Both the position numbers and the translations under genes were made by a program. This document shows, in pieces, positions 27,136 to 52,303 of a stretch of DNA of 64,000 bases (the stretch's first letter is position 1; every line of letters begins with the position of its first letter). The notes beneath the pieces were generated by a model. That model worked only from the letters and a program-made list of their open reading frames with translations. It did no database searches and was not told the DNA's origin. Source of the stretch: Corallococcus sp. EGB (lineage in GTDB: Bacteria > Myxococcota > Myxococcia > Myxococcales > Myxococcaceae); NCBI RefSeq assembly GCF_019968905.1, contig NZ_CP079946.1:2480001-2544000 (forward strand), read 5' to 3'.

Positions 27136-27321
27136 GTGCTGAGCGACGTGCCGGTGCGCCACGGGTATGCCGAGATCACCGCCACCGTGGCATCGGGTAG
27201 CGGATGGCGAGTTCGCGGAGAGGTTGGCTATCGACCGACCAGCCATCTCGGCGCCTTCGCATTCGCCGAAGCCTCGTCAGGAACTCGGATGGCAGGGGCT
27301 GGTCTCAGGTGGTTTTTCTGA
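27136..27321 (+). CDS. Short beta-rich protein, copy 1 of a tandem pair
   Basis: A short frame whose C-terminus, LGAFAFAEASSGTRMAGAGLRWFF, closely resembles the end of the frame at 27900-28121. Start is uncertain (GTG 27136 gives 61 aa). The beta-strand pattern ending in an aromatic residue suggests an outer membrane-type strand set. The 3' end is overlapped by the 3' end of the HNH gene on the other strand (27277-27321). Confidence 0.5.
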   Translation: MLSDVPVRHGYAEITATVASGSGWRVRGEVGYRPTSHLGAFAFAEASSGTRMAGAGLRWFF

Positions 27322-27918
27322 AACGACGTGCGCCCATAGCGTCTTCTTGACGACTCGGTAAATCAGATGACGGCTCACGCCGAAGCGTTCCGCCAGAGCC
27401 TTGGCCAAGACGCCTTCGGCGTGAGCCGCCCTGATTTCAAGAACAACCTCGCGGGTGAGCTTCGCGTTCGGATGCGACTCGCCGCGCTTGAGCTTCTCCC
27501 GAAGCCTTCGAGACGGATTCGCGTCGCCGCGCTGTAGGCGATCGGGTTGCCGACGAGTCCAGTGCTCGTCACCGCGTGGGAGGGTGCGCGGCACAACTTT
27601 TGCGCCACGGGCTTGGCGTCCCTTCGAGTCCCTGTCTGCGTTGTTGTCGGCATTTGAGCCCAGGAAGAGATGGTCAGGCCTGACGCACCCCGGATTGTCG
27701 CAGTGGTGGCAGACCAATACGCCTTCTGGGATGGGACCGTTGGTCAGCTCCCATGCGACCCGGTGCGCCCGCAGGTGCTTTCCGTTCGCTGTGAAGACCC
27801 CGTATCCCCGCAGGTGGGCAAGGGTCCACTCCCAACACCCCTCTCCCTTGCGGACCTTTTCCCAGAATCGCTCGGCAATATTGCGACGCTTCCGAGGTTT
27901 TGGCTGGCAGTTTGGCAT
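27277..27918 (-). CDS. HNH homing-type endonuclease with C-terminal HTH
   Basis: A 213-residue HNH endonuclease (HNH_3 type). The motif spans about 50-90: RAHRVAWELTNGPIPEG, then VCHHCDNPGCVRPDHL with HH at 71-72 and zinc-type Cys 70, 73 and 78, then a GSNADNNADR tail. Residues 149-198 form a separate HTH of the kind that reads DNA in homing enzymes (HPNAKLTREVVLEIRAAH then ALAERFGVSRHLIYRVV). It is oriented against the phage late operon and sits between two related short frames, as expected of a selfish insertion. AT-richer than the structural genes. Confidence 0.88.
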   Translation of the reverse strand: MPNCQPKPRKRRNIAERFWEKVRKGEGCWEWTLAHLRGYGVFTANGKHLRAHRVAWELTNGPIPEGVLVCHHCDNPGCVRPDHLFLGSNADNNADRDSKGRQARGAKVVPRTLPRGDEHWTRRQPDRLQRGDANPSRRLREKLKRGESHPNAKLTREVVLEIRAAHAEGVLAKALAERFGVSRHLIYRVVKKTLWAHVVSEKPPETSPCHPSS

Positions 27919-42809: not shown

Positions 42810-42847
42810 ACAGACTCCATGGGGGTTGGGGTTACGGCTGGACGGAG

Positions 42848-42914
42848 TGCCGGTGCCGGACTCGAACCGGGAGCGCTGAGACGTCCAGCGGGGGCCCACG
42901 CCCCGTCATCGGCA
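42848..42914 (-). other. tRNA-like sequence, degenerate
   Basis: On the minus strand this 67-base segment can fold like a tRNA: acceptor TGCCGAT with ACCGGCA (6 of 7 pairs), a GGGG/CCCC D-like stem, an anticodon-like stem CGCTG/CAGCG around GACGTCT, and a T arm with TTCGAGT. It is too short, has only two variable-loop bases, and lacks U33, so it is unlikely to be a working tRNA. It may be a pseudo-tRNA or att-like relic. Confidence 0.4.
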
Positions 42915-48366: not shown

Positions 48367-48908
48367 CAGCATCTTGACGGTGGGCAGTACCCAGCCGCAT
48401 AGTGATTAAGAGCAGCAACGCAGGAACTCGCTGACGGATAGCAGCGAGAAAACCCCACAGCCGTTTTCGAACGGCACAACTTAGAGCGCTGGGCAACCCA
48501 GGCAGGTGCTGGGGGCGGGCGCTCCGGCGGTACGCGCACGGATCTATCCGACGTGCGCGTGCCCGCCGTCTTCGTGGGGTGCGCGATGACTCGGAATTCC
48601 CTTCGTAGCCGTCTCCAACTTCGGACGGTGCGTCCATGCATGGCACCTCCGTCGCTCACGCTCCCCACGTCGAGGCTCGGCCCTCGCGTGATTGGGGCGG
48701 TGCGCTGTCGCAGCTGCGGCCCCAGCGCGACCGCGCGGTTCGCACCCTTCTCGCACCCTCCCTGAGCTGGCGCGCAAGTTGCTCTTCGCGCGCGTGTCCT
48801 GGCCGGCCCTCCGGCGTGGGCACCGCGCTGCCCGGGTGACAACCTTTCAGGTTGTTGCCACATTTCAAACCTAGACCTTAGTTCAGTGCTGCGCGGCGGG
48901 GGTATTCG
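48367..48908. other. Non-coding stretch before the excisionase gene
   Basis: I see no convincing gene in these 542 bp. Short frames here lack ribosome sites and codon bias. The only signal is the palindrome at 48840-48854. The region may carry integrase arm sites or promoters. Confidence 0.5.
48840..48854. promoter_or_regulatory. Palindromic operator candidate CAACCT-TTC-AGGTTG
   Basis: Same half-sites as at 45771-45785 with one spacer base changed. It lies 55 bp before the excisionase candidate and is followed by a TTGCCA, a possible -35. It may control the excisionase/integrase transcript. Confidence 0.6.
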
Positions 48909-49199
48909 ATGACGGAGAACGATGTGGTGGAAGCTGGGCACCTTGAGGCGCGGGCCTCTGTGTCCCGCTCCGAGGATGCGTTGACGAAGAAGCGGCAGCG
49001 CCGCAAGCCGGTGCCACTGGAGGAGTTGCCGACGGGCCTGTGGACCGTGGGTGACTGCGCCCGCTACCTCGGGAAGTCGGACGACTGGGTCTACAAGCGG
49101 AGCGCCGACGGCACGCTGCCGATGCGCAAGCACGGCGCGGACAACCGCTACGTGCCCGCGGAAATCGTGGCCTGGGCCACACGGGCGAAGGGGCAGTAA
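48909..49199 (+). CDS. MerR-like HTH protein, excisionase candidate
   Basis: A 96-residue protein with a HTH_17/excisionase-type domain in the C-terminal half: LWTVGDCARYLGKSDDWVYKR, then GTLPMRKHGADNRYVPAEIVAW, the winged-helix pattern of Xis and phage AlpA proteins. The N-terminal 35 residues are charged and disordered. It is followed after 2 bp by the integrase gene, so it is probably co-expressed and assists or controls integration. Confidence 0.75.
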   Translation: MTENDVVEAGHLEARASVSRSEDALTKKRQRRKPVPLEELPTGLWTVGDCARYLGKSDDWVYKRSADGTLPMRKHGADNRYVPAEIVAWATRAKGQ

Positions 49200-49201
49200 C
49201 C

Positions 49202-50596
49202 GTGGGCTCCATTCACGCGCGAGGTCCCGGGGTATGGGAGCTGGTGTTCCGCAAGGCGAATAAGCACCGCGGCTACGACCGGGTGCATGGGACAAAGTCC
49301 GAGGCGAAGAAGCGGCTCGCGGAGCTGGAGGTGCGGGAGGAGCGCATCCGGCTCAACCTGGAGGTCCCGCCCATCCTGCAGACGGTCGAGGACGCCTACG
49401 AAGACCATCGCGACTCGCTGCGTGAGCTGCGCAGCTTCGCCAGCGTTGATGGCCGCTGGCGGAACCACATCCTCCCCACGCTGGGGCGGACCCTGGTCCA
49501 CCAGGTCACCCCGGAGGACATCTCCAAGCTGCTGCGCGCGAAGGCGAAGGCCGGGTCGATGCGCGGCGAGGGGGGAACTGCGCTCTCGCCCCAGACCGTG
49601 AGGCACCTGCGCATCCACCTCTTCCGGTTCTTCACGTGGGCCATCGAAGAGAAGCGGCTCTTCCGGGGCGAGAACCCGGTCGCGCGGGCATGGGAGCCGG
49701 AGGTGTTGGAGCCGGAGCCGCAGGCGCTCGAACTGGCACAGGTGGAGGCCATTGCTGCCGCCGCCCTGGACACGGACGTCGCCGACCTTATTCGCACGGC
49801 CGTCCTCACCGGGCTGCGCCGCGGGGAACTCATTGCCCTCATCTGGGCTGACGTGGACCTGGAGGACCGCATCATCCGCGTGAAGCGGAGCGGCGATAGC
49901 AAGACCACCAAGGGGGGGAAGAGTCGGCCCGTTCCCATCCCCCTCGCGCTCCTGCCCCACCTGGAGCGTCGCCGCCGCGAGAGCCGGAGCAACTATGTGT
50001 TTCCGTCGCCCGCGGGGGGCATGAACCGTCCGGACTGGGACGTAAACGCCCTCTTCCAGACGGCGCTGAAGCGGGCGGGACTCGTCGATGGCTACGAGCA
50101 CACCTGCGGCACAACGCGCGCGCCGGCCACCGGTGAGCGGCACGGACGCGCGAAGTTAAAGGCGGCCCAGGTCCGGGACGTTCGCCGCCGCGCTGCCGCA
50201 GGAGAGGGGCCCACGGCGCTCGCGAAGGCCTTCGGGGTGTCCCGGCGCACCATCGGACTCATCATCAAGGGTGAGCGCTGGGGCGGGGCCGCCCAAGCGG
50301 CAGGTGGGTGTGGGCACACCGAGACGCACCCGGACAACGCGGCCCGGGAGTGCCCGGCCTGCAAGGTGCAGATGCAGGCGAAGGCGCTCCCCGCGCGGTT
50401 CCTCTTCAAGCACCTGCGCTCCACGTACCTCACGCACGTGGTGGAACGGACTGGCGACCTCAAGGTGAGCCAGGACCTGGGCGGTCACAGCGATGACCGT
50501 GTCACCCGAAGGCACTACGCGAAGACGAAGGAGAAGCACCTCCGCGAGCAGGTGGACCGGGCCTTCGCGTCCGTGGTTGCGGATGAGGGGACTTAG
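49202..50596 (+). CDS. Tyrosine integrase with an inserted HTH domain
   Basis: A 464-residue phage integrase from GTG 49202. It has the SAM-like N-terminal core-binding part and the catalytic domain with Arg 206 (TGLRRGE), the beta-hairpin Lys region, K-H-L-R at 403-406 (Lys replaces the usual first His of HxxR), His 429 (LGGHSDD) and the nucleophile Tyr 439 (TRRHY). Residues about 303-367 are an insertion between GYEHTC and GCGHTETH. It contains an HTH (HGRAKLKAAQVRDVRRRAA, ALAKAFGVSRRTIGLI) that resembles the C-terminal HTH of the HNH endonuclease at 27277. The flanking Cys/His stretch (GCGHTETH, ECPAC) looks like a zinc ribbon split by the insert. Integration at the nearby tRNA-Arg fragment is expected. 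Confidence 0.88.
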   Translation: MGSIHARGPGVWELVFRKANKHRGYDRVHGTKSEAKKRLAELEVREERIRLNLEVPPILQTVEDAYEDHRDSLRELRSFASVDGRWRNHILPTLGRTLVHQVTPEDISKLLRAKAKAGSMRGEGGTALSPQTVRHLRIHLFRFFTWAIEEKRLFRGENPVARAWEPEVLEPEPQALELAQVEAIAAAALDTDVADLIRTAVLTGLRRGELIALIWADVDLEDRIIRVKRSGDSKTTKGGKSRPVPIPLALLPHLERRRRESRSNYVFPSPAGGMNRPDWDVNALFQTALKRAGLVDGYEHTCGTTRAPATGERHGRAKLKAAQVRDVRRRAAAGEGPTALAKAFGVSRRTIGLIIKGERWGGAAQAAGGCGHTETHPDNAARECPACKVQMQAKALPARFLFKHLRSTYLTHVVERTGDLKVSQDLGGHSDDRVTRRHYAKTKEKHLREQVDRAFASVVADEGT

Positions 50597-50744
50597 GAAT
50601 CCGCCACCAACAATTCACCAACAAACCGAGCCGAAAGCAGCCTGACGCAGCCCGACAGAACCTAACGACGTATCGAGAAAACCGAGGGAAAACGATGGGA
50701 TACGAGCGTAGCCGAACGCAACCAAAGGGAGCCAAAACCCGAAA

Positions 50745-50791
50745 CCGGCCTTCGAAGCCGAGGGTTGGGGGTTCAAGTCCCTCTGGGTGCA
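50745..50791 (+). other. Right attachment site: tRNA-Arg 3' fragment
   Basis: These 47 bases match the 3' part of a tRNA: an anticodon stem-loop with CTTCGAA (anticodon UCG, Arg), a variable segment, a T arm with GTTCAAGTC and the acceptor half TGGGTGC plus A. No 5' half precedes it. This is what a prophage integrated in a tRNA 3' end leaves at its far side; the complete gene should lie at the left end, outside the window. It starts 148 bp after the integrase stop. Confidence 0.75.
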
Positions 50792-50886: not shown

Positions 50887-51969
50887 TCAGGCGTCCGGGT
50901 TCGTCGCGGCCCGGTCCTTGGCGGACGGCACCTGGCAGCGCAGCTCCGTCTCCGCCTCCAGCGCGGTGAGGTTCTCGCGCATGGCCTTGGCCCACTTGGC
51001 CCGGGGCTGCTCCATCAACTTCTCGTGCGCCAGGTCGATGGTCTCGCTCAGCTCGTCGTCGGACAGCTCGGACGTGGTCTTGCCCTTGTGCGGGCCGAAC
51101 GCCACCACCACCGCGGCGGCCTTGGGTCGCTCGGGCGTCTGCGCCACGGGCACCGCCGCCGCCGTCTTGGCCGGTGCCAGCGGCAGGTCCACGTCCAGCC
51201 GCGACTCCTCCTTCTCCGGGGCCCGCGCCGTCTCCACCTTGGGGGACTCCGCGGGGGCGGGGGCCAGGGTGGGGAAGGATGCCTTCACCGGCCCGGGCTT
51301 GGAGCCCAGCACCTCGTAGGCACCGGACGCGGGGGCCGGCTCGTCGTGCGCGTCGTACTCCTCGGCCGGCATCTCCTCGCGCACGTACAGGCCGCCGAAC
51401 GCCTCCGGGTACGCCTTGCGCAGCGCCGCCACGCGCGCGCACTTCTCGATCATCGTCGTGGGAATCTTGGCCCACAGGGGCGTCTGCTGGACGTAGCCGG
51501 AGAAGTCCAGCCACACGACGACGGGCAGCTTCCCCTCGCGCACCACGCGCGACCAGGCACCCACCAGGGCGCCCTTGCGCTTGGCCGGGTTGAATCGGTG
51601 CACCACTTCCCCCTTGCCCTGGTCCACGACGATTTCATCCTCGGCGAACACCGCGCTCGCCTGGATGCCCTTGAAGTCCGGGAAGCGCTCCGCCCGGGCG
51701 AGCATCCCCGCCTCCGACGGCTGGAACTCGTACTTCGTCACCCAGTTGGGCCGCTCGCGGTTGCCGATGTTCTGGCGGCGCGCCACGCAGAAGGCCTCCT
51801 TGAGGAGCGGATCCAACCCGCTGCGCTTGCACTGCTCGATGAAGAGGGCGAACTCGTCCTCGCTGATTCCCCGAGGGCAGATGGTCCGCTTCACCAGGTC
51901 CACCCGCTCCCGGTTCCAGGCCGCGCCCTGCGGCGACGTCGTTGCCTCCGCCTTCACATTCGCATCCAT
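50887..51969 (-). CDS. bet: Phage-type recombination protein Bet (annealing protein)
   Basis: A 360-residue protein of the Bet/RecT annealing group. Residues 20-200 hold the family landmarks: TICPRGISEDEFALFIEQCKRSGLDPLLKEAFCV, TKYEFQPSEAGMLARAERFPDF, then a KIPTTMIEKCARVAALRKAYPEAFGGLY segment. The C-terminal 160 residues are Pro/Ala-rich and then helical, a long added tail. GGAGA lies eight bases before ATG 51969. It lies outside the right attachment site, so it belongs to the host chromosome or an older element and not to this prophage's operons. Confidence 0.85.
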   Translation of the reverse strand: MDANVKAEATTSPQGAAWNRERVDLVKRTICPRGISEDEFALFIEQCKRSGLDPLLKEAFCVARRQNIGNRERPNWVTKYEFQPSEAGMLARAERFPDFKGIQASAVFAEDEIVVDQGKGEVVHRFNPAKRKGALVGAWSRVVREGKLPVVVWLDFSGYVQQTPLWAKIPTTMIEKCARVAALRKAYPEAFGGLYVREEMPAEEYDAHDEPAPASGAYEVLGSKPGPVKASFPTLAPAPAESPKVETARAPEKEESRLDVDLPLAPAKTAAAVPVAQTPERPKAAAVVVAFGPHKGKTTSELSDDELSETIDLAHEKLMEQPRAKWAKAMRENLTALEAETELRCQVPSAKDRAATNPDA

Positions 51970-52303
51970 CACTGTGTCTCCAGCACCGCTCGAAAAGGCG
52001 GACGACCCTCGCCCGCCCACATGGTTGCCGCGGGCTCACGGCGCATGACCGGTGGGGCAGGGGCCCGGAGGGGCACCTGCTACAGGCCTGCAGCGCGAAG
52101 CGCGGCGTGGATCAACATGCGAGCCGGGCAGACCCTTCGCATCGCTTCCCGGTGCCAGGGACGGCCGGCCGCACGCCGGGCATCCGGTTCCAGCGCGGAG
52201 AATGTGAGGGGTGTGCAAAAACGTTTTGACAGGACAGGCGGCGCCCGGTATTCACCGCGCCACCTCGGACGTCGCGCAGCCAACGCGGCAGACGGACCAA
52301 GCC
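51970..52303 (+). promoter_or_regulatory. Intergenic region with strong promoter for the tRNA pair
   Basis: Between the bet-like gene and tRNA-Lys the only clear signal is a near-consensus sigma-70 promoter: TTGACA at 52226-52231 and TATTCA at 52249-52254, 17 bp apart. It lies 50 bp before tRNA-Lys and would transcribe it. Nothing else is recognised. Confidence 0.75.

Follow-up and report, generated by a model that had tools for sequence, protein, structure and literature searches.

The insertion of a DNA-binding domain into a tyrosine recombinase has been described for engineered enzymes. In Brec1-278-Zif268, the zinc finger Zif268 was placed at position 278/279 of Brec1, a position chosen partly for its closeness to DNA, and the fusion is described as impaired on the plain site and as regaining full activity when a zinc-finger site lies nearby; corresponding results have been presented for fusions of the D7L, D7R, RecHTLV, and Vika enzymes (PMC11631766). 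Natural insertions in the catalytic domain are also on record, namely the beta-hairpin of IntTn916/Tn1549 and the insertions of the integron integrases, and these are described as important for DNA handling (PMC8138268, PMC5871717). In Mx8, attP is located inside int, and integration changes the end of this gene (PMC6070905). In the open-access literature searched, no description was found of a helix-turn-helix (HTH) insertion in an integrase of the kind presented here.

The integrase of the present study, P0001, is encoded in a 64,000-nucleotide stretch of Corallococcus sp. EGB DNA (NZ_CP079946.1, positions 2,480,001 to 2,544,000; hereafter, the window), and the features of this locus are collected in Table 1. 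Genes for a terminase, a portal, a head protease, a tail sheath, and a tape-measure protein are present in the window, and the element is therefore a myophage-type prophage, with int at its right end and the HNH endonuclease gene inside the same element. An intact tRNA-Arg(tcg) gene was found at genome positions 2466003-2466076, and an empty site in another genome of the same genus (L297 of G006), where the flank matches overlap by 46 bp (1373-1418). The att core pair and this empty site place the size of the prophage at about 64.7 kb, with its left 14 kb outside the window. Together they are the marks of a past integration of the element, as judged from sequence, and do not tell which enzyme was responsible. 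The exact 46-bp core had no match in the viral contigs. In addition, ARAGORN predicted a tRNA-Thr(cgt) inside the prophage (window 42847-42913, minus strand). Beyond attR, on the host side, lies a RecT/Bet-type recombinase gene (window 50887-52020, minus strand); six other genomes have homologues (best copy 72-95% identity) at the equivalent place, with several kb of extra DNA ahead in two of them, and the gene therefore looks chromosomal rather than part of the prophage. In L296 (G010) and L298 (G001), tRNA-Arg(tcg) and the RecT gene are separated by about 4.5 and 3 kb of other sequence, respectively, accompanied by short repeats of the right flank; these are perhaps other insertions at the same site.

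Table 1. Features of the integrase locus (positions within the window).
Feature	Position	Strand	Remarks
HNH endonuclease encoded in this prophage; the module of the insert recurs as its C-terminal tail (about residues 149-198)	27277..27918	-	Pairwise and profile searches
Small HTH_17/excisionase-like protein	48909..49199	+	HTH_17 1.2e-4, weak, under the Pfam curated cut-off; phrog_66 1.7e-5
Tyrosine integrase P0001, 464 aa	49202..50596	+	GTG start, translation as described; Pfam Phage_integrase 5.9e-19
Cys ribbon interrupted by the insert (Cys302, Cys370, Cys384, Cys387)	50105..50362	+	Alignment; putative metal binding
Insert of 67 residues (303-369), flanked by Cys302 and Cys370	50108..50308	+	Alignment
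HTH helices 321-332, 337-344, 348-355	50162..50266	+	AlphaFold; block-mean pLDDT 90-95 (321-350), 77 (351-360)
Tandem CACCAACA, candidate arm-type site	50605..50623	+	Other copy across the core, L056:6150-6168
19-bp sequence, 51 bp from the core	50695..50713	+	Possible binding site of the HTH, of Xis, or of a bending protein
attR core, 46 bp identical to tRNA-Arg(tcg) positions 29-74	50746..50791	+	Partner copy at genome 2466031-2466076, left of the window

P0001 has the layout of a tyrosine integrase. An N-terminal part (residues 3-50, with three strands and one helix in the AlphaFold model), which may have an arm-binding role, is followed by a core-binding domain and a catalytic domain. Comparison with PDB structures returned the same two-domain fold, with Tn1549 Int as the top row (Z 20.5, rmsd 3.0, 286 aligned residues) and both XerA and lambda Int within 1 Z of it (lambda: Z 19.9, rmsd 8.1, 314 aligned). 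The catalytic residues are R206, K237, K403, R406, H429, and Y439, and R206, K237, R406, H429, and Y439 are invariant in the alignment of the four integrases carrying the insert, so the tyrosine recombinase motifs are present. Arg206, Cys302, Cys370, His429, and Tyr439 had been named in the first-pass annotation, made from the sequence alone, and stand where it placed them, without change among the four carriers. In box II, Lys403 replaces the His of most integrases, giving KxxR instead of HxxR. The same KxxR at residue 403 (window 50408-50410) was observed in L007-L011, L036, L037, and L038, and Mx4 has RxxR; for the IntBPP-1 subgroup, the first His of HxxR is likewise described as less conserved (PMC8138268).

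The main finding is an insert in the Cys ribbon. Against the approximately 65 extra residues previously counted between Cys302 and Cys370, the alignment gives 67. Among 44 aligned integrases, comprising that of the window and 43 loci from other myxobacterial genomes, the spacing between the first and second Cys is 1-8 residues in 37, the ribbon is absent in 3, and the spacing is exactly 67 in 4. Five further loci were omitted, namely L001 and L048 (the window itself), L004 (a second match to the L002 ORF), L005 (HNH), and L006 (a partial match). Integrase matches were obtained in 54 of 98 and in 98 of 195 genomes, and because the loci are best matches only, the count is no census of the integrases in those genomes. 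In the 37 rows with a short knuckle, the Cys370 column holds another residue in 4, and 5 others have Asp in the Cys387 column. The four Cys residues are invariant in the carriers, and the ribbon may bind zinc or another metal.

The four carriers are the window phage and phages or loci of G049, G145, and G141, whose integrases are 67, 53, and 43% identical to that of the window, respectively; thus, the insert is not unique to this phage. Its borders and its length of 67 are the same in all four, and the reading frame is open throughout. That all three closest relatives have the segment could indicate an ordinary part of the catalytic fold in this group of integrases, with no insertion at all. 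However, the ribbon of Mx4 Int is also of the short form and has no HTH, the knuckle is short in 37 of the 44 rows, and the segment forms a separate domain in the AlphaFold model. On the first two of these observations, an insert belonging to the normal fold was rejected, and this explanation is to be regarded as highly improbable. The match of the Mx9 integrase to P0001 ends at residue 304.

The distribution of the insert was narrow. With a profile of the four carriers, no fifth carrier was found in 96 family genomes, in which at most 16 best candidates per genome were scored and four full-length matches were obtained, and none was added by 30 places in 195 phylum genomes. Among the matches listed, the module was absent from the integrase ORFs of 79 viral loci, one of which (L226) has a weak module match (E 5e-4) in a separate ORF. 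A scan of contigs with two peptide patterns matched solely the Myxococcus sp. CA023 copy (carrier G049) and one distant integrase. In a tree calculated without the ribbon columns from the 44 aligned integrases and 11 of the 79 viral integrases, the four carriers need one change of state (SH-aLRT 98, quick method). The divergent, insert-free L038 joins them in an unresolved fork of this tree, and loss of the insert in L038 is therefore possible. A knuckle of the CVTRGTRKGC type is present in the insert-free L008, L010, and L011, and the insert of L036 begins CVARKTRAPGERN; for these reasons, the module may have entered a knuckle that was already lengthened, and since such knuckles comprise 8 residues, the captured module proper probably spans about 309-367. 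At L102:1495-2174 (G023), a 57-aa ORF of the endonuclease-tail HTH type lies immediately 5' of an integrase fragment that starts near the GLRxGE motif. This locus has the appearance of decayed debris and was discounted as a fifth carrier; it is perhaps what remains of another encounter between an endonuclease and an integrase.

Structure prediction is consistent with a module set into a ribbon. The AlphaFold model of P0001 (49 sequences; alignment A6, with 47 of the 79 viral integrases and the CA023 copy) had a mean pLDDT of 89 and a pTM of 0.74 and presents an ordinary integrase with a separate three-helix HTH. The HTH is held between linkers at 306-316 and 360-366 (about 11 and 7 low-confidence residues, pLDDT below 50), and predicted ribbon strands flank it on both sides (295-301, 373-376, and 392-397). 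When the insert was modeled alone with 47 viral tails, the same three helices were obtained (mean pLDDT 76 across 72 residues), and it is thus predicted to fold on its own. With Foldseek, the best match of the isolated HTH in the PDB reached an E-value of only 0.47; the rows include IstA and the HTHs of Sin, Hin, and gamma-delta resolvase at rmsd 0.7 to 4.8, which is no more than suggestive. A search of the PDB with the tail profile was headed by 8vd6 ('CAP REPEAT', E 4e-13) and 8tac ('DBP48', 1.1e-5), designed proteins as judged by name, and then by 1s7o (0.0014), the remainder of the 60 rows listed being general HTHs. In an hhalign comparison with P1 Cre, the ribbon and HTH fall at about Cre 282-286 (E 4.3e-6), and a second, smaller profile places the insert between Cre 272 and 273 at an E-value of only 0.16; the Cre position depends on the alignment of a loop. 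The two placements bracket 278/279, the zinc-finger insertion point of Brec1.

The module resembles the C-terminal tails of phage HNH endonucleases. The first-pass annotation had pointed to the HNH protein of the same prophage, and this similarity proved real: a whole-genome six-frame search aligned its tail with the insert at 38% identity over residues 310-365 (E 0.0086), and with a profile of the four inserts, the tail is the best match in the host genome after the integrase itself (E 1.4e-5, next 0.024). In the reverse direction, profile A8 of viral tails, searched against the 9.4-Mb genome, placed the insert first (E 1.1e-20, 76.8 bits), the HNH tail of the window second (E 1.2e-15), and another ORF third (E 3.1e-4, 24.2 bits); the first-place score is inflated because the tail loci were chosen with patterns from the insert. 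In both directions, therefore, the likeness to the HNH tail is much better than that to other HTHs of the genome, the comparison that had been proposed for telling kinship from a chance HTH pattern. The third match to A8 is a 128-aa open frame at genome 2478775-2478891, left of the window and in the same prophage, and an equally long frame is found at 2889380.

The viral loci had been found through two insert peptide patterns, with the best 80 of 94 kept, and profiles A7 and A8 comprise 47 and 46 of 59 distinct viral tails; HNH content played no part in this selection. Nevertheless, HNH_3 is present in 71 of these 80 module ORFs and GIY-YIG in 2. With 22 genome ORFs added (4 of the 26 genome loci were omitted from the Pfam scan as repeats of listed ORFs), HNH_3 is found in 85 of 102 (25 of 47 families listed). 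The 25 of 37 families listed for the viral module ORFs do not include Phage_integrase, and a local integrase profile matched none of those of the best 80 of 94 loci. The lead-in is also common to both kinds of protein, reading ATGERHGRAKL in the insert and ATGERHGRSKL in the HNH protein of L133, so the insert can be written as a GERxGR(A/S)KL lead-in followed by an HTH and a final Trp, and it outscores other HTHs of the genome in the A8 search. A spacing of 13 after HGRAKL had been given earlier; 19 residues in fact separate HGRAKL from ALAKAF. The insert scores weakly against Pfam HTH families and somewhat better against PHROG families of HNH endonucleases and of phage HTH proteins. Membership of the insert in the tail module family of phage HNH endonucleases is thus supported. 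The HNH gene of the window was considered as the evident donor and rejected because viral HNH tails are closer to the insert (60% identity for the best pair among the best 80 of 94 loci, as against 38%), and direct origin from that gene is not supported by the sequences. In L164 and L165, the same tail module occurs on ORFs resembling GIY-YIG/NUMOD3 endonucleases, which suggests sharing between nuclease families, and a 605-aa ORF in L104 (G143:C1, about 9689380-9690327) has at least three copies of a GExxxxAKL-HTH module.

The kinship with homing endonucleases raises the question of a splicing or still-homing element. The insert comprises only 201 bp, however, and no nuclease domain of its own was found; Pfam searches up to E 1 revealed neither an HNH catalytic family nor an intein splicing domain in P0001, and its matches to PHROG endonucleases are confined to the HTH. 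As the frame is also open in all four carriers and constrained as protein, we give this explanation almost no weight. The results are better described by the first-pass statement that the integrase had received a DNA-binding module, a statement borne out by the confinement of the insert to four related integrases, by its place in the HNH-tail family, and by its separate domain in the model. The other inquiries suggested at that time were answered as well: alignment with myxobacterial integrases yielded borders shared by all carriers and the short form in Mx4 Int, structure prediction yielded a separate three-helix HTH on low-confidence linkers, and the search for further integrases yielded the three relatives described above (43-67% identical). 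On whether homologues have the segment as an integral part, the answer was divided, in that three close relatives carry it and 37 of the 44 aligned integrases have a ribbon with a short knuckle.

The same annotation had also offered the scar of an endonuclease insertion. In this explanation, a homing-type endonuclease brought the insert in and was subsequently deleted, leaving the insert as a functionless passenger. Several observations would be consistent with such a history: the insert is the tail of homing-type endonucleases, Cre and its derivatives are reported to tolerate five-residue insertions in the corresponding region (PMC11631766), and an insertion in a phage methylase, open in frame, is described as hiding an HNH gene in another frame (PMC11855218). 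However, no Pfam domain was detected in four antisense ORFs over int, where a hidden HNH gene might have been placed, the length of 67 is kept in all four carriers, and the HTH motif is kept between proteins only 43% identical. Selection points in the same direction. By the Nei-Gojobori method, dN/dS of the HTH core (310-361) was 0.156 between the window integrase and L007 and 0.153 between L036 and L037, and that of the whole insert was 0.124 and 0.253; for the same two pairs, the values in two catalytic stretches were 0.181 and 0.246, and 0.352 and 0.168, and those in the N-terminal part were 0.427 and 0.301, all being point estimates without confidence intervals. In comparisons between subclades, whose dS values are high or saturated, dN/dS of the HTH core was 0.163, 0.353, and 0.256, and undefined in one case. 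The contrast with the other parts of the protein varies from pair to pair. These results support purifying selection on the HTH about as strong as that on the catalytic domain and so speak against a scar in decay. A scar is therefore possible as the origin of the insert and disfavored as its present state, since the HTH values in the two within-subclade pairs are no higher than those of the catalytic parts; as an explanation of the insert today, a tolerated scar is quite unlikely.

A tRNA-Arg fragment lies beside int in all four carriers: positions 29-74 of tRNA-Arg(tcg) at 100% in the window phage, positions 28-66 of the same tRNA at 92% in L007, and the last 43 and 47 positions of tRNA-Arg(tct) at 98% in L036 and L037, the two tRNA genes belonging to one cluster in the genome of the window. 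In the 20-kb surroundings of seven insert-free integrases, no tRNA gene was found in six, and the seventh has one unassigned tRNA-like call. The tRNA-Arg pattern of the carriers may reflect common descent alone. In L036 and L037, the int ORF continues in frame through the tRNA-Arg(tct) fragment, and integration would therefore alter the C-terminus of the integrase. The tandem CACCAACA is a good candidate for arm sites: the 84 kb searched contain only two copies, and these flank the core (at most 2 mismatches; mean 0.00 in shuffles). The 19-bp sequence is exact only in loci of the window genome and G049 (9 of 299 loci). No word of at least 8 nucleotides is common to all four carriers near the core; longer words are shared within the window phage/L007 and L036/L037 pairs, and one 8-mer (L007-L036) and some 7-mers are shared across the subclades. 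For a motif search, four sequences are too few.

The HTH could instead serve regulation rather than site recognition, for instance by binding close to an att arm or to the promoter of xis/int and thereby repressing int or setting the direction of recombination. A weak likeness of the module to the phage regulators phrog_836 and phrog_517 would fit this role, as would the xis-like gene, whose end directly abuts int on its upstream side, and the 19-bp element common to the closest relative. On the other hand, the insert does not sit at a terminus; it is internal to the catalytic domain, and the nearby Cre position is one described as lying close to DNA. In addition, the repeats found around 48650-49210 were limited to a 9-bp direct repeat and a 13-nt inverted repeat of 85%. 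We consider a regulatory role unlikely.

Herein, we propose that the HTH tail of a phage HNH or homing-type endonuclease was captured in the ribbon of the integrase and adds a specificity contact at the att site, a reading that we hold with somewhat better than even confidence. First, the ancestor of the four integrases would have taken up the GERxGR(A/S)KL-HTH tail, most simply once, and the module would have come to lie in the knuckle of the Cys ribbon ahead of catalytic box II. Second, the HTH may bind a short DNA sequence beside the core or in the arms. Third, this contact would add affinity or specificity to integration or excision, by analogy with the zinc finger inserted in Cre-type enzymes. 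Capture of the HTH module and constraint upon it are supported by the comparisons described above; the DNA target of the HTH and any gating are inferred. A bolder form of this proposal is a naturally gated recombinase, in which the catalytic domain becomes competent only once the HTH has engaged a short site of its own next to the core, the site lying in the tRNA-Arg gene region, in the attP arms, or in both; this we advance tentatively, as a possibility that is rather less than probable. If gating were true, the phage would have solved targeting through domain capture, as engineers have done with inserted zinc fingers, and the tails of homing endonucleases would be a portable natural source of targeting domains. 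Irrespective of gating, the integrase is a natural case of a tyrosine recombinase whose catalytic domain houses an inserted DNA-binding domain, and the kind of source of that domain can be traced. It makes the gain of new DNA contacts by integrases testable, provides recombinase engineering with linkers that are ready to use, and indicates that the tails of homing endonucleases are able to pass into DNA enzymes of unrelated kinds.

Compared with known systems, the capture of an endonuclease tail sets P0001 apart in some respects and joins it to others. The Cys ribbon is of the same kind as that of Mx4 Int, which differs in having no HTH insert, and the int ORFs of L036 and L037, running through a tRNA-Arg(tct) fragment, recall what has been described for Mx8. 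The module and its GERxGR(A/S)KL lead-in are those of phage HNH endonuclease tails (phrog_59, phrog_20467, and phrog_6156); in those enzymes, the module is mostly the tail of a nuclease, whereas here it is internal in a recombinase without a nuclease domain. Similarly, the ShiLan insertion in phage methylases (PMC11855218) is described as HNH-derived sequence open in frame inside a phage enzyme, but the methylase insertion conceals an entire nuclease in a different frame, and P0001 has the HTH tail alone, in the host frame. The insertions of IntTn916/Tn1549 and of the integron integrases differ from the HTH insert in being described as a beta-hairpin or short, and the terms helix-turn-helix and zinc are absent from the main text of PMC8138268. 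The closest counterpart is Brec1-278-Zif268, which, as described, also carries a small DNA-binding domain on linkers in the catalytic domain, shortly before box II. That fusion is engineered and Cre-type, with a zinc finger and a measured dependence on the nearby site; the integrase is natural, with an HTH and a presumed dependence. By this analogy, the natural HTH on its linkers could act as an extra short sequence-specific contact near the core.
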